A DNA stretch of 64,000 bases from Streptomyces sp. TRM49041 (GTDB taxonomy: Bacteria > Actinomycetota > Actinomycetes > Streptomycetales > Streptomycetaceae): contig NZ_VSRY01000062.1 in NCBI RefSeq assembly GCF_008271805.1, forward strand, positions 1 to 64,000, read 5' to 3'. Numbering within the stretch: the first letter of the stretch is position 1; each line of letters begins with the position of its first letter. A model generated the notes under the pieces. That model ran no database searches and had not been told where the DNA came from. It saw nothing but the letters and a program-made list of their open reading frames with translations. The position numbers and the translations under genes were made by a program. Positions 1 through 14,448 of the stretch are shown here, in pieces.

Positions 1-70
1 CCCAGCCGGATCGGCGACATCGCCCGAGCCGCACTCGTCCTCAACGGAATCTGGAAGTGATCACCGTTGA

Positions 71-193
71 GAAAACCTCACTGATCGCACTATTCGACGG
101 TGGGTCGCCGACTACCGCCGACACGGTGAGGCCGGCCTGGTCCAGCGGACAAGTCCCCAGGCACGGTCCTTCGGCAGGGCCGATGACCGATGG
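71..193 (+). pseudogene. coding-like stretch fused in frame ahead of the tnsB start, probable broken 5' end
   Basis: This stretch is open in the same frame as the transposase at 194 and encodes a helix-turn-helix-like segment (TDRTIRRWVADYRRHGEAGL). That is the kind of N-terminal DNA-binding module expected in TnsB/Mu-type transposases. It has no ATG, GTG or TTG start and is closed by a TGA at 68-70. Positions 1-57 read PSRIGDIARAALVLNGIW in another frame and also look coding. The simplest reading is that tnsB once continued upstream and was broken by a frameshift near 57-70, or that the true upstream frame is outside the window. Confidence 0.5.
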
Positions 194-1786
194 GTGGAGA
201 CCGCGCTGGAAGTCATGGTCGAGCACACCGGAGAGTCGAAGCCATCACGCAAGATGGTCATAGATCGGAATCAGGCCCGGGTGATCGCGCGGTTCGGTCC
301 TGAAGTCGTACCCCAGCCCAGCCAAGCCACGGCCTACCGGGTGCTCACAGAGTTGGAGCGGCGACACCCGCTGTTCCGGCTGAGTACGAAGCGCAACCGG
401 GATATCGCCGATCGGCCGGAGGGTCCGTACGGCAAGCTGCGGCCGACGCGGCCGGGCGAGTACCTGCTGATGGACTCCACCCGCCTGGACGTCTTCGCGT
501 TCGACCCGCTGACCCTGAAGTGGGTGCAGGCCGAGCTGAGTGTCGGGATGGACTGGTACACCCGCTGCATCACGGGGATCCGGCTCACGCCGGTCTCGAC
601 GAAGGCGGTGGATGTCAGCGCAGTGCTGTTCCAGTCATTTCGGCCGCGGCTTGCGGGGCGGGACTGGCCGCGGCACGCGGTCTGGCCCGAGCACGGCATC
701 CCCCGCACCGTCCTGGTCGACGTCAAGGGCGCCACCGGGCCGGGGCTGGCCTCGCCGCCTTTGGTTCCCGAGACGCTGGTCGTCGACCACGGCAAGGTCT
801 ATGTCTCGGAGCACCTGACCAGTGTCTGCCGACGGATGGGCATCTCCATCCAGCCGGCCCGGCTGCGGACGGGCCGCGATAAGGGGCCGGTCGAGCGCTA
901 CTTCCGGACTTTGCGGGAGGGGCTGCTGCAGGTGCTGCCCGGCTATAAGGGCCCCGACATCCACTCGCGGGGTGAGAGCCCGGAGGACGACGCGTTCTTC
1001 TTCCTCGACGAGCTTGAGGCGATCATCCGGGAGTGGACCGCGGCGGTCTATCACTTCCGGCCGCATTCCAGTCTGGTCGATCCGGGTCTGCCGGGTCTGC
1101 GGATGTCCCCGGTGAAGATGTTCGAGCACGGCATGGCGCGGGCGGGTTACATCGAAGCGCCCTGCGACCGGGACCTGGCTTACGAGTTCCTGCAGACGAA
1201 GTGGCGCACGGTCCAGCACTACGGGGTCGAGATCGGCCGCCGCCGTTACAGCGGCCCCGGCCTGCCCGAGCCGGGAGTCCGTAGCCCCTACGACAGTCCG
1301 GTCAAGAACGGCTGGCCTTTCCAGGTGGACCCCGACGACATCACCCGGATCTACTTCCGCGATCCGGCTACTCGGGCCTGGCGCACGCTGGTCTGGGAGC
1401 ACGCGCCGTCGGCCGAGATGCCGCTGAGCGAGGACGCGTTGACGTTCGCCCGGCAGCTGGCGGCCTCGAAGTATCGCTTTCCTGACGACCGGCTTGCCGT
1501 CGCTGATTTGTTGGAGCGGTGGAATCTCGGGCTGGGCACCACGATCGCCGAGCGGCGCATGGCCCTGCGGCTCTCGCGCGAGCAGGCCGCCATCGAGCTT
1601 CCGGAGAGTGAGGCGGAGACGGTCGTCTCGCTTCCGTCCGTACGCAAGGCCCTCGGCCAGGACGAGCAGACCGCGGAACTGCGGGAGCCCGACGTGGTGA
1701 CGGAGACGGGGGATGACGACGAGGCCGATCTGGAGGACCTCGCCGGGGAGGACGACTTCTACGCCGATGCCCTGGAGGACGTGTGA
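194..1786 (+). CDS. TnsB-like DDE transposase (Mu/Tn7 superfamily), probably 5'-truncated
   Basis: This is the catalytic subunit that joins element ends to target DNA in a Tn7-like system. Counting from the GTG at 194, an rve integrase core is visible with a DDE triad at D94 (LLMDSTRLDVF), D198 (LVVDHGKVY) and E234 (KGPVERYF), the last two 35 residues apart. A Mu C-terminal-like beta-barrel follows at about residues 340-430, and the tail (490-530) is very acidic. The 530-aa product lacks a full N-terminal DNA-binding region; related residues continue in frame upstream to position 71 without a start codon, so this start may be artificial. The stop overlaps the tnsC start by 4 nt (GTGA), a sign of translational coupling. 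Confidence 0.85.
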   Translation: METALEVMVEHTGESKPSRKMVIDRNQARVIARFGPEVVPQPSQATAYRVLTELERRHPLFRLSTKRNRDIADRPEGPYGKLRPTRPGEYLLMDSTRLDVFAFDPLTLKWVQAELSVGMDWYTRCITGIRLTPVSTKAVDVSAVLFQSFRPRLAGRDWPRHAVWPEHGIPRTVLVDVKGATGPGLASPPLVPETLVVDHGKVYVSEHLTSVCRRMGISIQPARLRTGRDKGPVERYFRTLREGLLQVLPGYKGPDIHSRGESPEDDAFFFLDELEAIIREWTAAVYHFRPHSSLVDPGLPGLRMSPVKMFEHGMARAGYIEAPCDRDLAYEFLQTKWRTVQHYGVEIGRRRYSGPGLPEPGVRSPYDSPVKNGWPFQVDPDDITRIYFRDPATRAWRTLVWEHAPSAEMPLSEDALTFARQLAASKYRFPDDRLAVADLLERWNLGLGTTIAERRMALRLSREQAAIELPESEAETVVSLPSVRKALGQDEQTAELREPDVVTETGDDDEADLEDLAGEDDFYADALEDV

Positions 1787-2901
1787 ACGACGGCAGCGTT
1801 CCGCATCCGGGCAGTCTTGCCTTGTCGCGGAAGGAGGACTTCAAGGCGTTCGCAGAGAGCCCTCGCCGCAGCCGGCCCGACCTGCTGACCCGCAAGCAGC
1901 TGAAGTCCCTGCCCACACAGGCGCGGGCGGACTACGACCGTCAGCGCCGGCAGTGGCACGCGAACATCGGCCCGGTCAAGACGCCGCAACTGACAGAGCT
2001 CCATGAAGACCTATGGGACATCGTCGACAGCAACGAGCAGGACGGCGACAAGGCCAAGGGGGCGGTGGCCGTCGACGCGTTCCCAGGGCTGGGTAAGACG
2101 ACCTCGGTGCTTGCCTTCGCCCGCGACTTCCACCAGCGGGAGATCGAAGAGTCAGGAGCCTTCACCAGCCAGGGGCACGAGCGGATCCCGGTCTGCCGGA
2201 TCGGGCTGACCGGGAACACCGGAATGAAGGATCTCAACCGGGCCATGCTGGAGTTCTTCGGCCACCCCGGACAGATGCGGGGGACCACCGCCCAGTTCGG
2301 GCGGCGGGTGCTGGACTGCGTGCTGTCCTGTGATGTCCGCCTGGTGGTTCTGGACGATCTGCACTTTTTGAAATGGGGACAGAAGAGCGGCATCGAGGTG
2401 AGCAACCACCTGAAGTGGATCGCCAACGAGTTTCCGGTGACGTTGCTGATGGTGGGGGTCGAGCTCGCGAAGAAGGGCCTGTTCGGCGAGGGAACGAACG
2501 GGCGCGACACCGCTCTGGCCCAGACCGGCCGCCGCACCACCCGCCTCGGGCTTCGTCCGTTCACCATCGATATGGAGGCCGGGCGCCGGGAGTGGCGGCA
2601 GATGCTGCTGGCCCTCGAACAGCGAGTCGTGCTCACCGACAAGCATCCCGGCATGCTCGCGGACGACCTGTCGGACTACCTCTTCGCCCGCAGCACCGGA
2701 CACATCGGCTCGCTGATGACGCTGATCAACCGCAGCTGCCAGCGGGCGGTCCGCACCGGCGCCGAACGTCTTGACCAGGAGCTCATGGACCGGGTGAAGA
2801 ACGACGAGGCATCCGAGGCCGCCCGCCTCGAACTGCAGGCCGCGCTGGAGAAGAAACGGCTGACCAGCCGCCCGCGGCCCCGGAGCCTGCGACCCGCATG
2901 A
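1783..2901 (+). CDS. TnsC-like AAA+ ATPase, transposition regulator
   Basis: This is an ATP-dependent adaptor that would bridge the TniQ target selector and the TnsB transposase. The 372-aa protein has a Walker A motif at residues 101-107 (PGLGKTT) and a Walker B at 186-192 (RLVVLDDLHFL). A conserved region consistent with sensor and arginine-finger segments follows (VTLLMVGVELAKKGLF, about 210-225). The N-terminal 70 residues and basic C-terminal tail (KKRLTSRPRPRSLRP) are the usual places for TnsB and DNA contacts. The GTG start overlaps the tnsB stop and the stop overlaps the tniQ start (ATGA), so the three proteins should be made stoichiometrically. The ATPase core looks intact. Confidence 0.87.
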   Translation: MNDGSVPHPGSLALSRKEDFKAFAESPRRSRPDLLTRKQLKSLPTQARADYDRQRRQWHANIGPVKTPQLTELHEDLWDIVDSNEQDGDKAKGAVAVDAFPGLGKTTSVLAFARDFHQREIEESGAFTSQGHERIPVCRIGLTGNTGMKDLNRAMLEFFGHPGQMRGTTAQFGRRVLDCVLSCDVRLVVLDDLHFLKWGQKSGIEVSNHLKWIANEFPVTLLMVGVELAKKGLFGEGTNGRDTALAQTGRRTTRLGLRPFTIDMEAGRREWRQMLLALEQRVVLTDKHPGMLADDLSDYLFARSTGHIGSLMTLINRSCQRAVRTGAERLDQELMDRVKNDEASEAARLELQAALEKKRLTSRPRPRSLRPA

Positions 2902-5552
2902 GAACGCCGGTCCGCACCCTGCCGATCCGGCTGCCTCCACTGCCCGGCGAGGCTCTGGACTCATGGCTGGAGGCGATGGCCAGGCGGATGGACACCGCGC
3001 TCGGTGATGTCCTGCTGCACTTCGGCTTCCCGGTCCGGCACCGGGCCGGAAACCAGTTCAGGGGCATCCCGGCAGACTGGACGATCGTCCTCGACGAGCA
3101 GCAGACCAATGCCGTCGCGCACGCCACCGGGACGTCCCCGGAGACAGTCGCTGCCCTGACCCTGGCTCATTACGACGGACGGGCCCTCCACCTGAGTGCC
3201 GGGGGCCGGGCCGTGTCACGGCACGTCCTTTGGGGCCGCGGAGGGGGATCCCGGTTCTGTCCGGAGTGCCTTCATGCCACTGGTGGGCGATGGCAATTGT
3301 CCTGGAGGCTCGGTTTCTCCTTCGCCTGCACCCGGCACCGCAGGCTGGTGGCGGACTGCTGCCCGCACTGCGGGAGGGTGCTGCGGCAGCGGCCCCGTTC
3401 CGGCCGGTCCGTCCCCCGGCCTGAACTCTGCGGCAATCCACCGACCCGCCCCACCCGCCCGTTCTCGGCGGGCTGCGGCACCGATCTGACCCGCGCTTCG
3501 ACGCTCCTCCTGCCTCCTGGCCATCCGGTTCTCACGGCGCAGGACCGAGTGATGGAGATCATCGACGGGGCAACGGCAGCTTTCGGCCCCTACCGAACCT
3601 CTCCCCAGCCGGCCTCGGCGGTGCTGGCCGACATCCGGGCCCTGGGCATACGCGTCCTGAGCGACCTGCCCGCAGCTGTCCTACGAGAACAGATCCCGGC
3701 TGACATCGCAGAAGCTCACCTCAGCACCGATGCGGTCTCCCCGCACACCGGACAGGCCATGGAACGTCCGGGGTTCATGGCCCCGCCCCGAGCCGCGGAC
3801 ACGGCCGTCGCGGTCACCATGGCCCTGAGCATCCTGGAGCAACCAGGAATCCACCCGGCCGGCGAGGCCCTGCGGAGCCTGCTGGAAGCAGTACGCGAGG
3901 AACTCACGCAGATCTCGGCGACCAGCATCGACAGCTGGGGCAGGGGCATCAGCCCGGTGCTGCAGTCCGTGCACCTGGCGGCCCTCGCCCCTTCCCTCCG
4001 CCCCAGCGAATACGTCCGCTACCGCATCATGACCGAGACCCCCCGCCGGCCGACCCGGACCACTCGGGACATCGAGCAGCGAGCCAGGAAGATCCCCACG
4101 ATGTTCTGGCCGCCCTGGACGATCCGCCTCGCACCACCTGAAGGAATCCATGCGCGGGCTCTGGCTCCCGTTCTCGCCTCCCTGTTGCTGATTCCCGACA
4201 GCCGCACATCCCTGGACCAGGCAGCCGGGTTGATCGGTGACGTCATCGACGGCACTGAGGTGTCACGCCTCCTCCAGGAAGTCGACGACCTTCCGCAATG
4301 GCCGGACATCGCCACTGCTCTGGACCGGCTCGCGGACTACCTCGGTGCCAACAGCACCCCCATCGACTACGGTCGGCGCCGACTCCTCGACTACACCGGC
4401 CTGCTTCCTCATGACCGCTGGCTGGAGATCTGCCGCCACACCGGAACACCACCGGGAACCGGACGGCGCGAACGCATCGCACGCAGCCAGCTCTTCCAAC
4501 GTCTCAGCGGCCTGCCCGCCGAGTCTGCCCCCGACGACCTGGGCGGGCCCGACAGTGCAGAGTTCCGGGCGACGTCCCTGCGGTTCACCGCGCTTCAGAC
4601 CCCTGAACTCGCGCACGCCCTCCAGCAGGAAGCCCTCAACTTCCTGGCCTCACACCACATCCACGACGAGCCCATGACCTGGCAGCCGCCCGCCACCCTG
4701 CTGGCAGGGCTCTCCCTTCCCGGCCCCGACCCGGCACACGTCGACCTACCCCGCCTGCACCAGCTTGTCCGCGAACGCCAGCACCCTGTTCAGCACGCCG
4801 CCCAGGTTCTGGGCACGACCGTCGAGGCCATCCGACATGTTCTCGACGAACATCCAGCCCCTGCACCCCCGCTGACGAAGAGCACCGCCAGGGCCGCCGA
4901 CCGCATCCGGCAGCAGGCCCGGCAAGCCATTCCGGCAGAGCGCTTCACCCGGCTCTACCTTGACGAACACCGGTCCCTCCAGCAGATCGCCACCCTCACC
5001 GGCTTCTCCCGCAGAGTGCTGACCGACCTTGCCAAGGAGTACGGCATCCCGCTCCGCGAGGGCCCCAAGGACTACAAGCGCCGCGGCACCGTCGAACGGG
5101 CCTGGCTCATCGAGCAGTACGTCCACCGCCGCCGGACCCTGCCGGACCTCGCCCGAGAAGCTGGCATGAGCACCGCGAACATGGCCCGCTGGGCCAAGAC
5201 CCACAACGTTCCGCTGCGACCACGCGGAGGATCCAGTCACAGCCAGGTACTTCGGGCAATCGACCAGGCCAGCCGAGCACCAAGCATCCTTCGGCCGGCA
5301 CTCGGCGGCCAGGGGGCCAGCGAACGGTTGAGCCGATTCGCGGCTGCATCTGCCTACCCCAGCCTCGGTGCCGCAGCGAGCGGCCTCGGCCTCAACACGT
5401 TCACCCTCGTCGCACAGATCAACCGGATCGAACGAGAACTCGGCGGACCACTCCTGGTCCGGGCGGAACGCGGTAGGCCCATGACGCTCACTCCCCTGGG
5501 GAAGAAGGTGCTCAAGGCCATTCGAAAGATGCAGGACAACACGATGCCCTGA
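2898..5552 (+). CDS. TniQ/TnsD-family target-selection protein with multiple C-terminal DNA-binding modules
   Basis: This is the probable target selector of the Tn7-like element. The N-terminal TniQ domain begins RTLPIRLPPLPGEALDSWLE and carries zinc-ligand-type cysteines at C121/C124, C144 and C154/C158 (FCPECL ... FACTRHRRLVADCCPHC). A second Cys-rich stretch lies near residues 176-195. The middle is an alpha-helical region with no recognised motif. The C-terminal third holds three helix-turn-helix-like segments at about 627-660, 681-719 and 733-774. It ends in a segment at about 811-873 that reads like a LysR-type winged helix (SLGAAASGLGLNTFTLVAQI, then GGPLLVRAERGRPMTLTPLG). At 884 aa it is much longer than minimal TniQ proteins and suits a site-specific TnsD-like role. 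The ATGA start is coupled to tnsC. Confidence 0.8.
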   Translation: MRTPVRTLPIRLPPLPGEALDSWLEAMARRMDTALGDVLLHFGFPVRHRAGNQFRGIPADWTIVLDEQQTNAVAHATGTSPETVAALTLAHYDGRALHLSAGGRAVSRHVLWGRGGGSRFCPECLHATGGRWQLSWRLGFSFACTRHRRLVADCCPHCGRVLRQRPRSGRSVPRPELCGNPPTRPTRPFSAGCGTDLTRASTLLLPPGHPVLTAQDRVMEIIDGATAAFGPYRTSPQPASAVLADIRALGIRVLSDLPAAVLREQIPADIAEAHLSTDAVSPHTGQAMERPGFMAPPRAADTAVAVTMALSILEQPGIHPAGEALRSLLEAVREELTQISATSIDSWGRGISPVLQSVHLAALAPSLRPSEYVRYRIMTETPRRPTRTTRDIEQRARKIPTMFWPPWTIRLAPPEGIHARALAPVLASLLLIPDSRTSLDQAAGLIGDVIDGTEVSRLLQEVDDLPQWPDIATALDRLADYLGANSTPIDYGRRRLLDYTGLLPHDRWLEICRHTGTPPGTGRRERIARSQLFQRLSGLPAESAPDDLGGPDSAEFRATSLRFTALQTPELAHALQQEALNFLASHHIHDEPMTWQPPATLLAGLSLPGPDPAHVDLPRLHQLVRERQHPVQHAAQVLGTTVEAIRHVLDEHPAPAPPLTKSTARAADRIRQQARQAIPAERFTRLYLDEHRSLQQIATLTGFSRRVLTDLAKEYGIPLREGPKDYKRRGTVERAWLIEQYVHRRRTLPDLAREAGMSTANMARWAKTHNVPLRPRGGSSHSQVLRAIDQASRAPSILRPALGGQGASERLSRFAAASAYPSLGAAASGLGLNTFTLVAQINRIERELGGPLLVRAERGRPMTLTPLGKKVLKAIRKMQDNTMP

Positions 5553-5564
5553 GACGCGGCATGA

Positions 5565-5966
5565 TCATTCCGGGTCGGCAATGCGTCGAAATACCCCGTC
5601 GAACTCGCCGGATGCCACGAGCCCGGCAATCACGCGCACCATGCTGCCGATGCCGGGATTCCGCACGATCAGCCCGTCCGCGCAGAAGAAGCACTGCCCG
5701 GAGACCGCCTCTCCGCTCGCCTCCCAGCTCCGCATGAGCCGATCCACCTCGGCGAGAGTGAAGATCGTGGAACTCCAGCGCGACCCGTCGGCAAGATGAA
5801 CCTCGGCATCGACGTTGCAGACCTCTTCGATCGCCTCGTCCGGTTCCACGAGGAAGAGCACCTGGAAGCCGGCGGCCCGAACCCGGTAGTAGGGAGCCTC
5901 CCAGTCGGCATCAGAAGCCCGACCCTCGGACGCCGGGCCCGCCTGTTGCGGCATCGACGCCGTCAC
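5565..5966 (-). CDS. hypothetical protein, second gene of a coupled pair
   Basis: This 133-aa soluble protein has no signal peptide or membrane segment and I do not recognise its family. It is acidic with an aromatic-rich beginning (ADWEAPYYRVRAAGFQVLF) and a central EVHLADGSRW stretch. Its ATG overlaps the stop of the leftward gene upstream (ATGA, 5963-5966), so the two are almost certainly co-translated. It converges on tniQ with only 12 nt between stops. Size, acidity and pairing resemble the small stand-alone or immunity-like proteins common in Streptomyces accessory DNA; that is inference from appearance only. Confidence 0.65.
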   Translation of the reverse strand: MTASMPQQAGPASEGRASDADWEAPYYRVRAAGFQVLFLVEPDEAIEEVCNVDAEVHLADGSRWSSTIFTLAEVDRLMRSWEASGEAVSGQCFFCADGLIVRNPGIGSMVRVIAGLVASGEFDGVFRRIADPE

Positions 5967-6427
5967 TGAAGCTCCTCACCCGGCGGTATGAAGGCGTCGG
6001 CGCTGTCGGCGTCCTCCACATGCCCCTGAGCATCGACTGTGATGGCAGTCGCCCGGCCCTGCGAAGTGATCAACCAGGCCAGCACCTGCTCCGTGAGAGG
6101 TGATCCACCCGGCCCTTCATCCGTCCAGTGTGCCCGCCATCCCCCACCGGGTATCGCGGCGACCACCTGATCGGCCCGCTCCAAGTGGGAGAAGTCCACG
6201 TAGTCCGTGACCTGGCGCAGTGCCCCTCGTTGCGGGTCGACCACCAAGGCTGTCCCGGTTGCGGGATCCCATCCCTCCACGCGCACCATGCGACCGATCT
6301 CGGTCTTAGTGCCATTGAAGATGGCGGTCCATCCGGTCTGATTGAAGTATCGGAGTTGCGTGGCGTCATGATCCCGGAGGTCCGGCGACCTGCTCGACCT
6401 CCGTGTCGTGGAAGCCGTGGTTATCAA
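5963..6427 (-). CDS. hypothetical protein, first gene of a coupled pair (start uncertain)
   Basis: This reading frame of up to 154 aa is convincing from about residue 23 (LRYFNQTGWTAIFNGTKTEI) to the end. It contains alternating beta-type segments (MVRVEGWDPATGTALVVDP) and an acidic tail. No good start is present: the longest frame opens with a TTG at 6427 without a ribosome-binding site, and the next ATG (6291) falls inside the conserved-looking part. It may therefore have lost its natural 5' end at a junction near 6380-6430. The stop overlaps the ATG of the next gene. The function is unknown. Confidence 0.55.
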   Translation of the reverse strand: MITTASTTRRSSRSPDLRDHDATQLRYFNQTGWTAIFNGTKTEIGRMVRVEGWDPATGTALVVDPQRGALRQVTDYVDFSHLERADQVVAAIPGGGWRAHWTDEGPGGSPLTEQVLAWLITSQGRATAITVDAQGHVEDADSADAFIPPGEELQ

Positions 6428-6686
6428 GAAACCGGCAGGCCGGTGATACTGATGTCAAAGACCCGACGGACTGTGGAAGCGGACCCAGACATTCCTGTAG
6501 GGCTCACGGAGCTTGTGGCCGACCGGCGGGCAGCCGGGCCAGCGTTGCTGCCACAGATCCGTCAGAAGCACCCGCACATCTCCAGTCAGTGGAGCCGCGA
6601 CTGGCTCCCCAAGCAGGGGAGGCCGCCGAGTAGGCGGGAGAGAGTGCGGTCAGTGGATTGCTGCTTTTCTATGCTGGTGCACACAT

Positions 6687-7955
6687 TCACTCGTTGGGGG
6701 ACTCCGTTGCCAGCGGGATACCGCACCGCCAGCAGTCGTTCGCGTGGTCGTCCTGGCAGACGTAGCCGATGGCACCATCCACGCACCATTCGGCGGCCTC
6801 CTCGGAAAGCAGGTCGGGCCCGGCAAGGAGCAGCCGACGAAATTCCGTGGTGTCCGCAATGTCGGCCGGCCGGTTGGTGAACCACTCGTCGAACCAAGGC
6901 TTGTCCCGGTATATGCGCCAGTGCGCATTCTCCCGGTCGTCGACAGCCGTAAGGAACCGATCGACGATGCGCCCCCAACTCGGTGCTCCGAACCAGCCGT
7001 TGTCGGACGCACAGAAGGATTCGATCAGGGTTCGCAGGCCGAACTCCTTCTCGTGAAGGCAGTACCTTCGCCCCCATGAGATCGCGACCTGCGCCATCTC
7101 CGCGAGTTCTTCTCGCGGATCAACCTCGTGCGCCGGGTCGTCAGGGTTGTGGCAGGCCAGCCCGAGCTCGAGTACGGACTGCCCTGTCGGTAGAACCCGG
7201 GACGGGTTGACGATCGCGAGACCGAGACCGATCCAGTCGACATGGTCGAACGACAGCATCGAGCGCACGAGTCGGGTGGTTGCCGTGTTGATCCGCATCA
7301 TTGTGCCGTCGTGGAGCGGACTCTTCCCGGCATGCCAGTTCTCGACAGGTGTGTTGCGCCACACGGCGAGCGTGATGCGGGTGGCAGCGAGCCACAACAG
7401 GGCGTCGTCGTCGAGGTGCCCGAACCGCTTGGCACACTCCTGGGCGCCGTAGGTGATCAACTCTTCCGGTTTCGGCCACCTGTGGCTGTCGGGCCCTTCA
7501 GGCGCGTACTCATAGTCGTCGGCGTACTCGTCGAGGATCGCACTCAACTCGGTTGCGCTGTAAGCCTCGCTGTACTCGGAGCTGTCCGGCTCCTCGACGG
7601 TGTACATGTCGTGGTCCCAGGAGACGTACAGGTCGCCCCAGAGCACGACGTCGTCGCACTCGCTGGCGTTGTCCGTCACAACCGGCCTGATGGTGATCGG
7701 GGCAGTACGCCCGTCGGTTCGCTCGCCGTCCTTCTCGGCGGCCCATGCGGTGATGATCTTGAGTGGCTTCGGAAGGAGAGGGCCGACCTCGGTGATGCTG
7801 AAGGGTTCGTCGTCGTCATCGGTGTCGAACCGGCTGTTGACGAACGCGACCGCCTCGGAGGGCGTGCTGACGATGGACTGGGTACCGCTCTCGTTGTCAA
7901 CCACTCGCCACAACGGGCTGTTCTTCAAGGTGCTCTCCGATCGCGGTGAGTGCAC
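6687..7955 (-). CDS. hypothetical 422-aa acidic protein, unrecognised family
   Basis: This is a soluble, strongly acidic protein without signal peptide or membrane helices. It begins at a GTG (7955), or more plausibly at a TTG at 7928 preceded by GGAGAG, giving MKNSPLWRVVDNESGTQ. The first 60 residues look like a small N-terminal domain ending in an acidic DTDDDDE linker. Residues 130-160 are rich in Glu, Asp, Ser and Tyr. The C-terminal two thirds (from about KPEELITYGAQECAKRFGHL) are helical with many conserved-looking Trp residues, and the end carries paired cysteines (CVDGAIGYVCQDDHANDCWRCG) that could bind a metal. It stands alone between degraded DNA on both sides. I cannot assign a function. 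Confidence 0.65.
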   Translation of the reverse strand: MHSPRSESTLKNSPLWRVVDNESGTQSIVSTPSEAVAFVNSRFDTDDDDEPFSITEVGPLLPKPLKIITAWAAEKDGERTDGRTAPITIRPVVTDNASECDDVVLWGDLYVSWDHDMYTVEEPDSSEYSEAYSATELSAILDEYADDYEYAPEGPDSHRWPKPEELITYGAQECAKRFGHLDDDALLWLAATRITLAVWRNTPVENWHAGKSPLHDGTMMRINTATTRLVRSMLSFDHVDWIGLGLAIVNPSRVLPTGQSVLELGLACHNPDDPAHEVDPREELAEMAQVAISWGRRYCLHEKEFGLRTLIESFCASDNGWFGAPSWGRIVDRFLTAVDDRENAHWRIYRDKPWFDEWFTNRPADIADTTEFRRLLLAGPDLLSEEAAEWCVDGAIGYVCQDDHANDCWRCGIPLATESPNE

Positions 7956-8128
7956 CCGGGGTGGGTGCGATGCGCCGGGTCGCTCGGCACTGACACCAAC
8001 TTATGGGCTGATCAACCCATCCGTAGTCCCGAAGGTGCTTGTCGGCGATGACGTTCGGTACGTTCGCGTGCAACCTGCTTTTCGCGACCGCGGCGACACA
8101 GCACAGTCCAACAGCGGAGGAGGCGAAG

Positions 8129-8463
8129 ATGGCGCTGAACAAGAAGGGTTCCCGGCGCATAACCGTTGACGGGATCGAGTACCGCTGGCGGATCCGCAGG
8201 AAGCCCTCCTACATGCAGGGACTCTGCTGGACACCGAGACCTATGCAGTTGAAGCGGCCAGCGGCAGCCAGTCGGGCGCGACCTTGATCGTCACCAGCGG
8301 CCAGGCCCATCCCAGCAACTGGGTGGGTGCCGAGGCAGTGCCCATCCGCCCAGCCCACGTTGCTGCCAGCATCCGAGAAGCACGGGACCGAGGCTGGGAA
8401 CCAACCAAGGCCGGATCTCCCTTCCAGCTCGACCGATCCGCAGGGTTCATCGCCCAGCCATGA
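8129..8463 (+). pseudogene. frameshifted small conserved actinomycete protein
   Basis: The start region (ATG 8129 behind GGAGGAGGCGAAG) encodes MALNKKGSRRITVDGIEYRW, typical of a small Streptomyces family of about 110 aa with unknown function. Near 8222-8230 the reading frame changes. The remainder of the same family-like sequence (DTETYAVEAASGSQSGATLI ... HPSNWVGAEAVP ... AREAR-type helix) continues in another frame to the TGA at 8461-8463. A single indel therefore separates the two halves. The gene is almost certainly inactive. Its last bases overlap the next broken gene (ATGA). Confidence 0.75.
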
Positions 8464-8816
8464 GACAAAGCGAACAAAAGCAGTCTATATCGGTCGAACT
8501 GCCGCAGAGGCTCCAGGCCTGGTTCTCCGAGCATGAGGAACGCCTGTAATCCTGCGGAATCACGGGTGCGGTCCAGCAGTCGCCCGAGGGCGGCCGAACC
8601 AAGAACAGCACCTGGATGACGCTCGAAAACGATGACTTCGTCGCCGTGCTCATCGTCTGGAGCAGCGGGGAAGCCGAGCTTGAGTACGGGGACATGGCAA
8701 CAGGCTAGGTCCGACAACAGCACCGGGATCTCTGCACCTTCCAGGACCTCCTCGACGCCATCGAGACCATCCACGAATGGATCCGCATAAAGGGCGAGCC
8801 GTCCGTGGAAGGGTGA
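8460..8816 (+). pseudogene. broken hypothetical gene with two in-frame stops
   Basis: From the ATG at 8460 the frame reads MRQSEQKQSISVELPQRLQA, then meets TAA at 8547-8549. It continues with uninterrupted protein-like sequence (CGITGAVQQSPEGGRTKNST, WMTLENDDFVAVLIVWSSGE) to TAG at 8706-8708, and again (VRQQHRDL, then DLLDAIETIHEWI) to TGA at 8814. No frameshift is needed, so two point nonsense changes appear to have killed a gene of about 118 codons. The start overlaps the preceding pseudogene and the final stop overlaps a small frame at 8813, the remains of a tight operon. The original function is unknown. Confidence 0.72.
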
Positions 8817-8923
8817 CCTCCGGCGAGTTTGAGAAAGCCTGGGCCGAGTTCCTTGACAGATTGCAACCCGATCCCGCCGACCTCTCGGTGTTCCGAGGAC
8901 TTCTTGGCATCATCGCGACATGA
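8813..8923 (+). CDS. small hypothetical protein (36 aa) in a degraded operon
   Basis: A GTG at 8813 overlaps the stop of the upstream pseudogene (GTGA) and its own TGA overlaps the ATG of the gene at 8920. The predicted peptide begins VTSGEFEKAWAEFLDRLQPD and looks like a single amphipathic helical segment. Coupling on both sides supports a translated frame, but it could be a leftover of a longer protein. No function can be given. Confidence 0.4.
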   Translation: MTSGEFEKAWAEFLDRLQPDPADLSVFRGLLGIIAT

Positions 8924-9315
8924 CCCCGACCCTTCCCCGCACCATCCGAGCCGTCGACAGCGCTCAGCTGCTGGACCTGGCCCAGGAGGCCGCCATGCAT
9001 GGCTTCAGCCAGCGGCTCCCGGTCGACTGGCTACGAGAGCACCTCGCCGCAGAAGCGACGCATTACCTGTTCCCGACGCTCGTGCAGCGGCTCACGCACC
9101 GTCCCGAGGTGCCGCTGCAGTGGAGGTGCCAGCAACTGCTGACCGTCAGCACCGGCGAGCAGATCTGGGGTCTCCTCGACGTCCTTCCCGACACCTTCGA
9201 CAAGATCCCGGAGACCTTGGATACGGCGTCCAAGAAGGACATCGTCAACCGCATCGAGCAAGCAGTGAAGGTGCGGGAGTGGATGGAACGGACGGCCGCC
9301 GATGCAGGTTCATGA
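8920..9315 (+). CDS. hypothetical protein (131 aa)
   Basis: This is the last and only full-length gene of the decaying rightward cluster. The 131-aa product is mostly helical, without membrane or export signals. It contains LLDLAQEAAMHGFSQRLPVD near the start and a heptad-like C-terminal helix (VNRIEQAVKVREWMERTAAD). Its ATG overlaps the stop of the small frame before it. I do not recognise the family. The lack of disrupting stops suggests it was lost from selection later than its neighbours or is still used. Confidence 0.6.
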   Translation: MTPTLPRTIRAVDSAQLLDLAQEAAMHGFSQRLPVDWLREHLAAEATHYLFPTLVQRLTHRPEVPLQWRCQQLLTVSTGEQIWGLLDVLPDTFDKIPETLDTASKKDIVNRIEQAVKVREWMERTAADAGS

Positions 9316-9437: not shown

Positions 9438-9466
9438 TGAGAACCTACAGCACATGTGGGTTCTCA
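9438..9466. repeat. inverted pair of a 12-bp motif, third copy at 11504-11515
   Basis: TGAGAACCTACA (9438-9449) faces the reverse complement of TGAGAACCCACA (9455-9466) with a 5-nt spacer. A perfect third copy, TGAGAACCCACA, lies at 11504-11515. It could be a hairpin terminator, or recombinase/transposase binding sites bounding the DIP1984 segment. Confidence 0.5.
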
Positions 9467-9653
9467 AATCCCGTGTCCTTTTCCCATCGGCGATGTCCAC
9501 CGCGTGGCCAATCGGACAGGGGAGTGGGAGCCAGGCTGCCCTGACGCGCCGAGGCTGTCAGATTCCCAGTAGTTCTCCTTCGTGGCGTCCGCTCTGGCTC
9601 CAGTGGCTGGTCAGGACTCCAGCGGATCAGAATCCAGGTGCGTATGAGTTGAT

Positions 9654-9675
9654 TCGCACTCGTATACTCGTGCGA
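9654..9675 (+). promoter_or_regulatory. dyad operator overlapping a -10-like element upstream of the DIP1984 gene
   Basis: A 22-bp imperfect palindrome has outer arms TCGCAC/GTGCGA and core GTATAC. TATACT at 9663-9668 inside it matches an actinomycete -10 box, 33 nt before the GTG start. A convincing -35 element is not seen. Confidence 0.45.
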
Positions 9676-9700
9676 GCTCTTGGAGGGGGAGGTGGAGACA

Positions 9701-10171
9701 GTGAAGCTTGCTGAGGCACTGGCAGAACGTGCGGAGGCGACGCGGCGTGTAGAACAGCTGCGAGCGCGCGTCGTCAGCAGTGCGCGGTACCAGGAAGGGG
9801 AGACACCCGCCGAGGATGCAGCTCAGCTATTGGCTGAGGCCGGTGAGGTGCTGGATGCTTTGGAAACGTTGATCCGGCGGATCAATCGGACCAATGCCAC
9901 CGTGGAGATGGGTCCAGATGGGACGCTCACCGATGCCCTCGCACGCCGGGACGTCCTGCGGTTGCGTCACTCTGTGGTCACTGCGGCGGCGGACGCGGCA
10001 GCGGGTAAGGGCGAGCGGGGATACGGTCGGCAGCTTCGGTCCGAGCTGATGATGCTTTGCGCGCTTCCGGTCGCGGAACTGCGCGGTCAGGCGGATGCAA
10101 TCGCCCGAGAGATCCGCGAGGTCGATGTGCGGATCCAGCGTACGAACTGGGAGGTCGACCTGCTGGACTGA
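9701..10171 (+). CDS. DIP1984 family protein
   Basis: This is a conserved bacterial family of unknown function, sometimes labelled septicolysin-like without good evidence. I chose the GTG at 9701 (VKLAEALAERAEATRRVEQL) because a very purine-rich Shine-Dalgarno region (GGAGGGGGAGGTGGAG) lies immediately before it. The 156-aa product is almost entirely helical: a first long coiled-coil-like helix, a loop with RRINRTNATVEMGPDGTLTD, then ALARRDVLRLRHSVVTAA and a C-terminal helix ending NWEVDLL. This matches the family in length and motifs. It appears intact although it sits among degraded sequences. Confidence 0.85.
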   Translation: MKLAEALAERAEATRRVEQLRARVVSSARYQEGETPAEDAAQLLAEAGEVLDALETLIRRINRTNATVEMGPDGTLTDALARRDVLRLRHSVVTAAADAAAGKGERGYGRQLRSELMMLCALPVAELRGQADAIAREIREVDVRIQRTNWEVDLLD

Positions 10172-10183
10172 GTAGTCCAGCAG
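10160..10183 (+). terminator. hairpin overlapping the DIP1984 stop codon
   Basis: CTGCTGGACT (10160-10169) pairs perfectly with AGTCCAGCAG (10174-10183) around the loop GAGT. The stop codon lies at the top of the left arm. A second hairpin (GGGCTGG/CCAGCCC, 10234-10254) follows. Confidence 0.7.
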
Positions 10184-10736
10184 GCTGGGACGATGTGGAG
10201 TAGGTAGCTGCTTCGGAGGCGTGCACACACCGAGGGCTGGCGGTTTTCCAGCCCACTCCTGGCGCGTGAAGAGCAACGCGGGGGTTCGACTCCCCATATA
10301 ACAGTGCAGCTCAGCACCGCGTACAGGTAACAGTGCACATCGCACAGCACATCACCACGTGCAGATCCAGGCGGCGAGGGCGGGTTCGGGGCTTCCACAT
10401 CGCAGCACCATGGAGAACGGCGATTTCCGGCGGACGCTGTTGGCGACTTCAGCGGTTCTCCTGCATCTTTCGCGAATGAGACTTCCGCGAAAGCCGGGTC
10501 GTCTGAGAGCGCTGGCTACCGGCGATCTCAAAGGACCTGGCAGCCGCGCAAGTCAGCAGCCCGCCAAATGCCACACGCCAGACGCAGTGCAACAGGACAC
10601 ATGCGGCGTGAACGAATAATTCCCCTCTTCGTGTACGGGACCACTCTGATCGTCGTCTTCGTGTGTACCAGGGGCAGGACCTCGGCGTTCGGCGGCTGAG
10701 AGGGCCGCTTCCGGAAACCCGAGGTTGGTGGGTCCG

Positions 10737-10868
10737 ATGAGTACAGCGGTGGCCGCGCCGGTACGGCTGAGTGTGCGGCGTGGTGACGAGGCGGTGGTGA
10801 AGGACCTGGAGTGGCCGTCAGTGCCGCTCGGGCTGCTGCGGGAGGCCCGGCCGTGGCGGACGTTCCGA
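10737..10868 (+). pseudogene. possible 5' remnant of a TnsA-like transposase endonuclease gene
   Basis: From ATG 10737 the frame gives MSTAVAAPVRLSVRRGDEAV and continues with DLEWPSVPLGLLREARPWRTF. The final segment resembles the start of Streptomyces TnsA-like endonuclease subunits, where a similar phrase precedes a conserved Tyr/Trp-rich segment. After WRTFR the similarity stops and the sequence becomes the beginning of an opposite-strand gene. The identification is from memory of the family and covers only about 44 residues. A TnsA fragment would fit the nearby tnsB-tnsC-tniQ genes. Confidence 0.35.
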
Positions 10869-10949
10869 GGGCCGGGACCGCGCCTCCACCCGCCAGTGCT
10901 GTCTCAAGTGCAGTGCCTTGACGAGCCGTTCGGTCATGGGGCCGGTCAT
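10869..10949 (-). pseudogene. truncated start of an unidentified leftward gene
   Basis: A good ribosome-binding site (AGAAAGGAAG) precedes an ATG at 10949. The frame encodes MTGPMTERLVKALHLRQHWR, an initiator-like helical N-terminus. After about 27 codons it runs into the antisense of the putative tnsA fragment, so the rest of the gene is missing. The position of the break coincides with the end of the tnsA-like similarity, pointing to a recombination junction at about 10868/10869. Confidence 0.4.
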
Positions 10950-11503
10950 ACGACTTCCTTTCTGTGCGGGCCTCTGGACGCCCAGTTCTGGTGCACCCCC
11001 CCCATGTTCCACCGTGGTGGGGACCGCAGGGTCGCTCCGCTCTCGGCCCCCGCCTCCCTGGTGACCGTCGGCAGCAGCGGCTTGCCGAGCCCGCTCGCCG
11101 CGGCCGTACCGGCGACGTCGACCGCGAGCACTGCCCACCCGCCCGGGTCGCCACGAGGACGTGCAACCGGGAAGGGAGATCGTGGCGGCGCGGAAGGATC
11201 CGGGGAGCACGGGCACCGCTGGCCCGGGCGCGGGACATGGCCGACCCCCGGGGCCCAGCCACCTGGCCGGGCTCCTGGTGGCCCCGCACTCCCTTGCGGG
11301 TGAGTGGCCGCGGTGGAGGCGGAGGGCGTCTTCGTCGCGCCCGGCCCAGAGGGCGCCCGCGCCCTCTTTCCGGCCCTCGACAACACCGAGCGAGCCACTG
11401 TCCGGTGAGGAAACGACACGGTCCTGAGATCCGAGGAACCTCGTCATCCACCGAGATCGGCTACAGAGCCGCTGGTCAGGAGCGCGTCATGTGAAGCGGT
11501 CGG

Positions 11504-11515
11504 TGAGAACCCACA
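11504..11515 (+). repeat. third copy of TGAGAACCCACA
   Basis: This perfect copy of the 12-mer is also found inverted at 9455-9466 and with one mismatch at 9438-9449. The right copy lies just before the first core-chromosome gene (lysE-like). Confidence 0.5.
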
Positions 11516-12989: not shown

Positions 12990-13068
12990 ACACGGCTCCC
13001 CTCGATCACCACGGTCACAGAGGTCGACGCCACGGTCCGGGCGGAGGTTGCGTGCCGGGGGATGGATC

Positions 13069-14448
13069 ATGGGGCCCATGACCTCATCACTCGAAGCGCT
13101 TCTCCCGGGGACGGAGCGTGCGCTGCTCCACCGGATCGCCGTCGGCCAGTCGGAAGGCCGGGCACCTTCACTCGTCGGGGCCGTCGCCAGGGGCGGCCGC
13201 GTGGTGTGGACGGGCTCGTGCGGAGATGTCGGTTCCGCCGTCGATACGCAGTACCGGGTCGGCTCCATCACCAAGACCTTCACCGCCGTGCTGGTGATGC
13301 GGCTGCGTGACGAGGGGCTGCTCGGCCTGGACGACCCGCTGGAGATGCATCTGCCGGGCACCGGCGTGGGGGAGGCGACGATCGCCCAACTACTCGGCCA
13401 CACCGGCGGTTTGGCCGCCGAGTCGCCAGGTCCCTGGTGGGAGCGTACGCCCGGTTCGCTGCGCCCGGAGCTCGCCGACGTGCTCGGCGAGCGGCCGTTG
13501 GCGCATCCGCGCGGGCGCCGCCACCACTACTCCAACACCGGTTACACGCTGCTCGGTTCACTGGTCGCGGCGGTGCGGGGCGTGTCCTGGGAGGAGGCCC
13601 TGAGCGCGGAGGTCCTGGAGCCGCTGGGGCTATCCCGGACGACGGCACGGCCTGTCGCGCCGCACGCAGACGGCTGGGCGGTGCACCCCTGGGCCGATGT
13701 GCTGCTGCCCGAACCCGTCGAGGACCTGGGGTTGATGGCTCCTGCCGGTCAGCTCTGGTCGACCGCCGCCGACCTCTGCCGGTTCGCGAACTTCCTCGCC
13801 GAGGGCGATGAGCGGGTGTTGTCCGCGGAGTCCGTCCGGGAGATGCGTACCCATGCCGTGCCGCCCGCTGCCGGGGACTGGGACAGCGGCTACGGGCTCG
13901 GGATGCAACTGATGCGGCAGGACGGCCGTACCCTCGTCGGTCACTCCGGCTCGCTCCCGGGCTTCGTCGCCGGCATGTGGCTGAGCGTGGACGACGATGT
14001 CGCCGCTGTCGTCCTGGCCAACGCGACCTCCGGGCCGCAGAGCGCCGTGCTCGCCTCCGACCTCGTACGGATCGTGGCCCAGGCCGAGCCCCGGATGCCG
14101 GCGCCGTGGAGGCCGCTGCCCGCGGCCGATCCGTCGCTCCTGGCCCTGACGGGCCCCTGGTACTGGGGCACATATGCCTACGCCCTGCGGGTGATCGAGG
14201 ACGGCGGTGTGGAGTTGCAGCCGCTGCGCGGTGCCGGGCGGGGTTCACGGTTCCGGGCCCGCCCGGACGGCACCTGGGTCGGACTCGACGCCTACTACGA
14301 CGGAGAGGTGCTCCGGGTCGTCCGGCGCGAGGACGGCACGGTGAGCCACCTCGACCTCGGCTCCTTCGTCTTCACCCGCGAGCCCTACGAGCCGGGTGAT
14401 GCCGTGCCGGGCGGGGTCGACGACGCCGGCTGGCGGGGCGCCCGTTGA
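13069..14448 (+). CDS. serine hydrolase, class C beta-lactamase/DD-peptidase fold
   Basis: This is a penicillin-binding-protein-like hydrolase of the Beta-lactamase family, probably a cytoplasmic esterase or peptidase because no signal peptide is visible. Counting from the ATG at 13069 (GGGGGATGG upstream; ATG 13078 is the alternative), the catalytic SxxK is S66-ITK. The YxN element is Y154-SN (RRHHYSNTGYTLLGS) and the third motif is H292-SG. An additional C-terminal beta domain (from about residue 370, GPWYWGTYAYALRV) is common in these longer, 459-aa members. All catalytic residues are present. It is divergent from GPP34 and is followed directly by a parS site. Confidence 0.85.
   Translation: MGPMTSSLEALLPGTERALLHRIAVGQSEGRAPSLVGAVARGGRVVWTGSCGDVGSAVDTQYRVGSITKTFTAVLVMRLRDEGLLGLDDPLEMHLPGTGVGEATIAQLLGHTGGLAAESPGPWWERTPGSLRPELADVLGERPLAHPRGRRHHYSNTGYTLLGSLVAAVRGVSWEEALSAEVLEPLGLSRTTARPVAPHADGWAVHPWADVLLPEPVEDLGLMAPAGQLWSTAADLCRFANFLAEGDERVLSAESVREMRTHAVPPAAGDWDSGYGLGMQLMRQDGRTLVGHSGSLPGFVAGMWLSVDDDVAAVVLANATSGPQSAVLASDLVRIVAQAEPRMPAPWRPLPAADPSLLALTGPWYWGTYAYALRVIEDGGVELQPLRGAGRGSRFRARPDGTWVGLDAYYDGEVLRVVRREDGTVSHLDLGSFVFTREPYEPGDAVPGGVDDAGWRGAR

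Follow-up and report, generated by a model that had tools for sequence, protein, structure and literature searches.

The window analysed here is the first 64 kb (64,000 nucleotides) of contig C53 (NZ_VSRY01000062.1) in the 7.49-Mb, 174-contig genome of Streptomyces sp. TRM49041, and it carries an incomplete Tn7-like transposon with an intact gene for an 884-residue TniQ protein. Very probably this protein serves a Tn7-like cut-and-paste transposon as its TnsD-type selector and directs insertion to a position just past the dnaB gene by means of a chain of helix-turn-helix (HTH) units. An earlier note, made from the letters of the window alone, had likened the protein to TnsD at attTn7 and supposed that it recognises one fixed site; that specificity is supported by the insertion sites of its homologues, since 14 of the 17 resolved elements with TniQs of at least 40% identity are located at dnaB, with a geometry like that of Tn7. 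In the mechanism proposed, TniQ would be the target selector of a transposon made of tnsA, tnsB, tnsC, tniQ and cargo. Its HTH chain would bind the coding 3' end of dnaB, centred on the codons for HYSRFVDMA, and its N-terminal TniQ/zinc region would recruit TnsC, which would place TnsA and TnsB so that insertion occurs about 10 bp past the stop codon of dnaB, with the tnsA side facing that gene and a 5-bp target duplication resulting. As dnaB and the attachment sequence would survive the insertion, related elements could land repeatedly at the same place and arrays would grow.

Insertions behind dnaB

Close homologues of the TniQ protein were found at 13 loci, 12 of Streptomyces and one of Streptantibioticus; 12 of these have flanking DNA, sharing at least one flank. 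The left flank is kept in 10 of the 13, its gene is dnaB in all 10, and in each of them the element end, TGTAGG(T/G)TCTCA (with TGCAGG in L019), lies 5-11 bp past the dnaB stop codon. Among the 17 resolved elements, the three away from dnaB comprise two that follow a gene of the OmpA family and one located elsewhere (L058), and the dnaB-sited ones include another family of the same order (L173, L174). This set includes L013 and L015, whose tniQ frames are broken, and an L173 copy with one stop, and it scores the distal array members of L171 and L173 as dnaB, being directly behind a dnaB-proximal element. It leaves out the window itself, L138 and L152 (found via dnaB), plasmid homologues, TniQs below 40% identity, fragments (L014, L016-L019, L030, L182 and others), L009 (left flank missing, right flank of the dnaB type), L011 (contig consisting of the element alone) and L071 (contig ending in tnsC).

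Of 295 Streptomyces genomes, 29 contain (at 31 places) a pattern joining a dnaB 3' end to an element end, and 3 contain the reversed pattern; 27 of the 31 places were checked for dnaB, those outside the check being G099, G192, G193 and the third place of G129, and the places in G192 and G193 do not resemble dnaB ends. The dnaB gene was detected in 150 of 150 genomes, and among the best 30 of these 150 genes an element-like end (at most 3 mismatches) stands 8-11 bp past the stop codon in eight, the end-like sequence of L094, at 23 bp past the stop, being left uncounted. At 34 dnaB sites the distance from stop codon to element is 10 bp in 20, 8 bp in six, 11 bp in four, 9 bp in two, and 7 and 5 bp in one each. 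Nineteen of these sites came from the pattern, and the degenerate end of L154 was chosen by eye; as the pattern permitted 0-26 bp, the spacing of 5-11 bp was not imposed by it. With the exceptions treated below, the elements show the fixed distance from a conserved attachment gene that characterises TnsD-type selectors. Attachment to a tRNA gene was considered and dropped: 10 of 11 scanned loci lack one, and the single ARAGORN call (tRNA-Arg, L009 3599-3689) falls inside tniQ and looks spurious. In genome G129 three element ends stand behind dnaB-like ends (C1:72819, C1:4443327 and C1:8459736), one of them being the housekeeping dnaB; the other two lie close to either end of the 8.5-Mb sequence and are identical in the part that was matched.

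The genes tnsA, tnsB, tnsC and tniQ occur in this order on one element (tblastn; L007, L008, L010, L012, L055-L061 and others), plasmid records annotate a TnsA-like heteromeric transposase endonuclease, and the elements possess the TGT..ACA terminal inverted repeats and the 5-bp target duplication of Tn7-like transposons, with repeated TGTCAT/TCTCA-like words visible by eye in their ends. An exact 5-bp duplication is present in 18 of the 51 loci with a defined tnsA-side end (86 candidate pairs), where chance would give 0.08 with equal bases and 0.15 at the 67.9% G+C of the loci; perfect duplications were found at 12 of 39 dnaB loci and at 6 of 12 loci elsewhere. Their sequences vary by locus (CACGG, CCGGA, TCCCT, GCCGA, CAGGT and others); the insertions are therefore independent. 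The dnaB-homing elements of L057, L152 and L172 have both a full gene set and a target duplication. The lengths of the elements at dnaB range from 615 bp (L135) through 1.7-1.9 kb (L140, L149) to 12 kb (L152, with a complete tns set); no tns genes were detected in L140 and L149, so that non-autonomous relatives also use the site. Mini-elements measuring 223-615 bp, which have both ends but carry no tns genes, are found at L012 5616-5847, L135 1561-2175 and, as oriented, L056 16074-16296; lying at the dnaB or the OmpA-gene site, they are MITE-like (miniature inverted-repeat transposable element) derivatives.

Tandem junctions occur in the window, L010, L012, L016, L151, L171 and L173, all at dnaB, and in L056 at the OmpA-family gene; the junction pattern matched 10 of 46 loci, two matches beyond those named here (L137, L143) being uncertain. 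The dnaB-proximal array members of L171 and L173 have perfect duplications of their own, and hence they arrived after the distal ones, within 5 bp of the same place. The two TniQs of the L171 array are 86% and 47% identical to the reference TniQ (P0001), and such divergence of array members would be compatible with a type-specific immunity, given that a resident Tn7 inhibits another insertion close by (PMC11406308). In L019 (4212-8248) and L182 (2353-6431) distant TnsABC genes, with a TnsB about 32% identical to the reference, stand between dnaB and a remnant of a window-type tniQ, and another kind of Tn7-like element may share the site. The L011 contig (1-7827; coverage 245 in its title) is one element from end to end, which may be multicopy in that genome.

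The shared position might also be explained by one ancient insertion inherited by descent, with no repeated homing, and the many loci that are decayed or without detectable Tns genes, as well as the conserved synteny of dnaB, would be in accordance with it. This is exceedingly improbable, as it is contradicted by the independent duplications, which differ at one and the same position; the TniQs at the site span 33% to 98% identity to P0001, and the tandem arrays and the insertions at paralogous and plasmid dnaB genes described below are likewise at odds with simple descent.

The TniQ protein and the sequence that it may read

The open reading frame with its zinc ligands, recognised from the letters alone, was confirmed by Pfam (TniQ, residues 9-149, E 9.5e-20) and by the C..C-C..H motif, which was present in 17 of 17 further homologues inspected; a CCCH zinc pattern is also described for TnsD of Tn7 (PMC2918618). 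The only other Pfam match over the cut-off in the window's protein is HTH_1 of the LysR type (residues 811-868, E 1.9e-7), since residues 600-780 gave sub-threshold matches only (e.g., HTH_26 at 744-769, E 0.11) and the three middle HTHs are too weak to be called from this protein alone. In the 40% identical homologue L188, from plasmid pRHL1 of Rhodococcus jostii RHA1, all four places exceed the Pfam cut-offs: in L188 numbering, Sigma70_r4_2 at 617-643 (33.7 against 25.7 bits), HTH_38 at 675-701 (30 against 27 bits), HTH_28 at 729-755 (37.2 against 25 bits) and HTH_1 at 795-853 (51.6 against 26.6 bits). At least one middle place was matched in L055, L057, L058, L059, L060, L138, L172, L174, L175 and L186, mostly below the cut-off, and Pfam gave no HTH at any of the three in L061.

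An AlphaFold2 model of the C-terminal 304 residues (10 close sequences; predicted local distance difference test, pLDDT, 68.6; predicted template-modelling score, pTM, 0.36) contains three-helix units at residues 617-651, 680-715 and 734-768, followed by a winged helix at 807-880. The full-length model repeats these helices, and the rest of it was discarded as too poor (pLDDT 44). The 50 best Foldseek matches listed in the PDB are LysR-type regulators, some of which we take to be of that type from the entry name alone; target template-modelling scores are 0.63-0.82 for entries holding only the DNA-binding domain, and among the matches listed the best E value is 0.02, none being below 0.001. 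Searching the PDB with the full-length sequence yielded nothing useful (best E 0.025, an oxidoreductase), and a phage collection contained no homologue of it. The LysR-like part is a DNA-binding domain alone, at the C-terminus; no effector-binding domain was seen, and the protein is therefore not a complete LysR-type regulator. Thus, profile and structure searches of the C-terminal third recovered both the three HTH-like stretches and the LysR-like fourth module that the earlier note had read by eye, although only the latter exceeds the Pfam cut-off in the window's protein. A TniQ domain with a CCCH zinc motif, followed by a long C-terminal region with several HTHs, is the architecture of a TnsD-type selector.

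Pfam detected the LysR-type unit in 14 of 23 different TniQs, including distant ones with strong scores (L188, 9.2e-14; distal copy of L171, 2.5e-14). That it specifies dnaB was rejected, as it is absent from the dnaB-homing L061, L152 and L173 and present in L056 and L175, which follow the OmpA-family gene; it is neither required nor sufficient for dnaB homing. In L011, L012, L013, L016 and L017 the alignment to the window ends at base 5240 (near codon 781), just short of the unit, and LysR unit and cargo alike belong to a different type (49% identity for L011 and L012); judged from these alignments, position 5240 is a shared exchange point inside tniQ. Four of these elements (L012, L013, L016, L017) are still at dnaB. 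Being missing or swapped in dnaB-homing elements, the unit is best seen as an accessory module. Its absences, its presence at the OmpA-family gene and its replacement in those four elements would all agree with a function other than target recognition, either as a regulator or in binding the element's own DNA, and its retention in a majority of the TniQs scanned, with strong scores in distant ones, does not; such a function is a serious possibility, albeit somewhat short of an even one. Hence, of the supposition that a chain of four modules reads a long fixed site, the fixed site has stood, whereas the fourth module is lacking in three dnaB-homing elements.

Divergent and plasmid copies of dnaB bear on which bases would be read. 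Insertions were found behind a dnaB paralogue of 41% amino acid identity (L146, 23 of 26 motif bases), behind another of 70% (L151, 25 of 26), behind a copy with a broken frame close to a chromosome end (L140), and behind plasmid dnaB genes of Mycolicibacterium alvei pJCM12272 (L185, 7 bp past the stop; 17 of 26, coding HLSRFANMA) and Tsukamurella (L186, 14 bp; 26 of 26). The motif matches of L146, L151, L185 and L186 were attained by none of 500 shuffles each; L140, L146 and L151 were found with a pattern holding the last 8 motif bases, and only the remaining bases are independent evidence there. Common to these targets is a block coding HYSRFVDMA, from which the insertion is offset by a similar distance throughout (43-50 bp), and in L012, whose dnaB has one extra codon, the block offset (44 bp) is kept better than the stop offset. 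Measured from the centre of the duplication, the block extends from about +18 to +43; for TnsD of Tn7 the bound range is +23 to +58 (PMC2918618). We infer that the block is read by the HTH chain. A degraded form of the motif was looked for at 12 non-dnaB sites and not found (smallest shuffle P 0.054, L190). Recognition of a feature in the intergenic DNA downstream of dnaB, for instance a terminator, in place of dnaB codons would suit the fact that the insertions at dnaB are always just past the stop codon. It is, however, highly improbable, because the downstream DNA varies among loci and because the similar block offset at paralogous and plasmid genes, and its preservation in L012, point to the codons.

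Two of these loci present further details. L146 (212-4899) holds two divergent dnaB paralogues close together, with the element end 10 bp past the stop of the first one. On Tsukamurella plasmid 14 (L186, 14391-20478) the transposition genes adjoining the plasmid dnaB are followed by genes for resistance to mercury and arsenic, and these genes may be cargo, although a far end carrying a matching duplication was not found.

The determinant of the site and insertions elsewhere

Site and TniQ likeness go together. The elements of L056 and L175, whose TniQs are 62% identical, lie 22 and 27 bp past the stop of the OmpA-family gene, and those of L059 and L195, with TniQs 85% identical, are both at one gene for an HTH protein, in which Pfam shows HTH_3/HTH_31 only and which presumably resembles the telomere-associated protein Tap. 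Conversely, elements with similar TnsABC but different TniQ occupy different genes: TnsB and TnsC of L056, at the OmpA-family gene, are 79% identical to the reference, and those of L055, at dnaB, 64% and 69%. Since the site tracks TniQ likeness and is not predicted by TnsABC likeness, TniQ fits better than TnsABC as the site determinant. It could still be argued that the HTH block of TniQ only licenses insertion, and that TnsC, TnsAB, cargo or a host protein chooses dnaB; the pairs L194 and L060, with near-identical TniQs and different sites, and L061 and L062 would favour this. That the site follows the TniQ clade in L056/L175 and L059/L195, with no such relation to TnsABC, and that TnsD is the selector of Tn7 (PMC2918618), render it improbable.

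Several observations weigh against a TniQ dedicated to dnaB. The dnaB-homing TniQs do not form one clade, a grouping that was rejected with FastTree on 16 sequences, and 27 of the 39 dnaB-side loci lack a perfect duplication, many of them being arrays, decayed or cut by a contig end. Below 40% TniQ identity dnaB adjoins the element in only L060 and L061 of 19 fetched loci (L059-L070, L072, L074, L176-L179 and L181; tnsA is preceded by only 257 bases in L065, the copies in L067 and L072 are broken, and some flanks are short or broken), and therefore only some members of the wider family home to dnaB. Only 2 of the 15 plasmid records fetched, from 57 found, are dnaB-adjacent. On a Streptomyces plasmid, L194 has a TniQ 97% identical to that of the dnaB-homing L060 and a clean 5-bp duplication of its own at a site without the dnaB motif. 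Likewise, L184, whose annotated TniQ coding sequence of 791 residues is 63% identical to P0001 and 70% to that of the dnaB-homing L172, is a true insertion away from dnaB on a plasmid, and so is L188. L062 shares 80% of its HTH region with the dnaB-homing L061, and its 10.9-kb contig contains neither dnaB nor a dnaB-flank match. Upstream of the elements in L058 and L062-L070 no attachment gene was identified. The expectation that homologous elements would share one target gene is thus borne out for the close homologues, which have dnaB at one position, and fails for distant ones and for some on plasmids.

The exceptions L194, L184, L188 and L062 imply either that a second route to plasmids exists, like that provided by TnsE for Tn7, or that specificity can relax. 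TnsE gives Tn7 its access to plasmids by plasmid capture. As chromosomes and large plasmids of actinobacteria can both carry a dnaB with the same 3' block, dnaB might be an attachment gene of both replicons, by which one selector homes to the chromosome and also boards plasmids, taking over the role of TnsE. The insertions at plasmid dnaB (L185, L186), at paralogues (L146, L151) and near a chromosome end (L140) would fit this proposal, which is nevertheless doubtful; the plasmid insertions away from dnaB (L184, L188, L194) indicate that dnaB is not the sole route to plasmids.

The element of the window and its relatives

The features of the window are collected in Table 1.

Table 1. Features of the transposon, its tandem neighbour and the chromosomal flank in the window
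Feature	Position	Strand	Remarks
3' end of insertion sequence (IS)	1..74	+	Interrupts tnsB; contig starts inside the IS; 98.6% identical to IS end on own-genome contig C88
tnsB, 5' part lost to IS	78..1786	+	Listed open reading frame 194-1786; weak Mu-transpos_C and rve Pfam matches
tnsC, AAA+ ATPase (TniB family)	1783..2901	+	Pfam AAA_22 1.2e-11, TniB 1.5e-10; end overlaps tniQ start
tniQ/tnsD, putative target selector	2898..5552	+	Intact frame, ATG start, 884 residues
TniQ domain, residues 9-149	2922..3344	+	PF06527, 9.5e-20; zinc ligands C121, C124, C144, H147
HTH unit 1, residues 617-651	4746..4850	+	Helices in both AlphaFold2 models; Pfam HTH at matching place in L188 (over cut-off), L057, L059
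HTH unit 2, residues 680-715	4935..5042	+	Both AlphaFold2 models; Pfam in L188 (over cut-off), L174, L186, L055
HTH unit 3, residues 734-768	5097..5201	+	Both AlphaFold2 models; Pfam in L188 and L186 (over cut-off), L055, L058, L060
LysR-type winged HTH, residues 807-880	5316..5537	+	Pfam HTH_1 over cut-off; Foldseek to LysR DNA-binding domains
Cargo open reading frames	within 5565..9315: 5565-5966, 5963-6427, 6687-7955, 8920-9315	-, -, -, +	No confident Pfam, NCBIfam or PADLOC match
Cargo-side element end TGAGAACCTACA	9438..9449		Inverted repeat of tnsA-side end TGTAGGTTCTCA
5-bp gap to next element, GCACA	9450..9454		Spacing as would be left by a new insertion at this position; compare L010, L012
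Decayed older tandem element	9455..11515		tnsA-type end at 9455, candidate cargo-type end at 11515, both by pattern
DIP1984-family gene inside decayed element	9680-10171		NCBIfam NF038048, 2.1e-52
Beta-lactamase-fold hydrolase, chromosomal flank	13027..14448	+	Pfam; start uncertain; same side of dnaB in homologous loci

DNA alignments of the window to L008, L009 and L015 begin at base 78 (96.6-98.3% identity over 8.4-9.4 kb), and GAGAACCTACA likewise terminates the elements of L008, L010, L014 and L019. The second element starts with the end TGTGGGTTCTCA, 5 bases past 9449, and may stop at 11515; its first part (9455-9529) is a 75% DNA match to the element end. The hydrolase flank has DNA matches in L008, L009, L013, L014, L016, L017 and L019. 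Contig C117 of the same genome carries dnaB, then 8 bp, the tnsA-end of the element (about 100 bp) and, at its terminus, the 5' part of the same IS whose 3' end opens the window. The two contigs would thus join across the assembly gap through the shared IS, which would place the window's element behind dnaB as well; GCACA differs from CCGCA, the 5 bp preceding the tnsA-end on C117. As tnsA and the 5' part of tnsB are lost, with tnsC and tniQ kept, the window's copy is probably no longer mobile by itself. Four other places of this genome (G000; contigs C84, C96, C97 and C122) share an equal sub-threshold TniQ-family score in a 337-residue frame, and these are probably copies of another transposon.

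The elements share with Tn7, whose TnsD acts at attTn7 by glmS, the TnsABC set and a selector with an N-terminal TniQ/CCCH region and C-terminal HTHs, the insertion just past an essential gene whose coding 3' end is read, the 5-bp duplication, and the orientation, since in Tn7 the tnsA side also faces the attachment gene. They differ in that the attachment gene is dnaB, in that insertion occurs about 10 bp past the stop as opposed to about 20, and in that the selector ends in a LysR-type winged HTH. In the annotated plasmid regions fetched no tnsE homologue is named, without a dedicated search having been made, and no CRISPR genes, which were not searched for. A TniQ core with a long multi-HTH C-terminal region is also found in the TnsD proteins of the CRISPR-associated transposons (CASTs) I-B, I-B2 and I-D, whose HTHs are proposed to read attachment sites at glmS and tRNA genes (Faure et al. 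2023, PMC10293859); multi-HTH TnsD proteins homing to conserved genes were thus already known, although with other attachment genes, and neither LysR nor dnaB occurs in the main text of that source. Tn7-like elements of Actinobacteria form a clade, no member of which had experimental characterisation according to Benler et al. 2021 (PMC8649781); its main text is without dnaB. Tn7706 of Rhodococcus is an element of tnsA, tnsB, tniQ and tniB on actinobacterial plasmids, differing in being multicopy on plasmids and chromosomal islands, with dnaB absent from the main text (PMC12915292). The Rhodococcus sp. YL-1 plasmid, a match among our homologues (H16, 39% identity), is also given there as a Tn7706 carrier, and the H16 element would then be Tn7706. 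Full-text literature searches, with supplements and most subscription papers outside their scope, did not turn up dnaB as the attachment gene of any Tn7-like element; the word is absent from the main texts of PMC10293859, PMC8649781 and PMC11406308, and PMC8987985 pairs a Tn7-like transposon with dnaB in an unrelated sense. It appears, therefore, that dnaB has not been previously described as an attachment gene of Tn7-like transposons.

These findings would add the essential replicative helicase gene dnaB, apparently for the first time, to the attachment genes of Tn7-like transposons, along with a selector having four HTH modules, one of them of the LysR type. They also account for the recurring stacks and relics of elements downstream of dnaB in Streptomyces. 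Moreover, they suggest that this genus of important antibiotic producers possesses a conserved landing site for DNA, the use of which would be harmless to dnaB itself.

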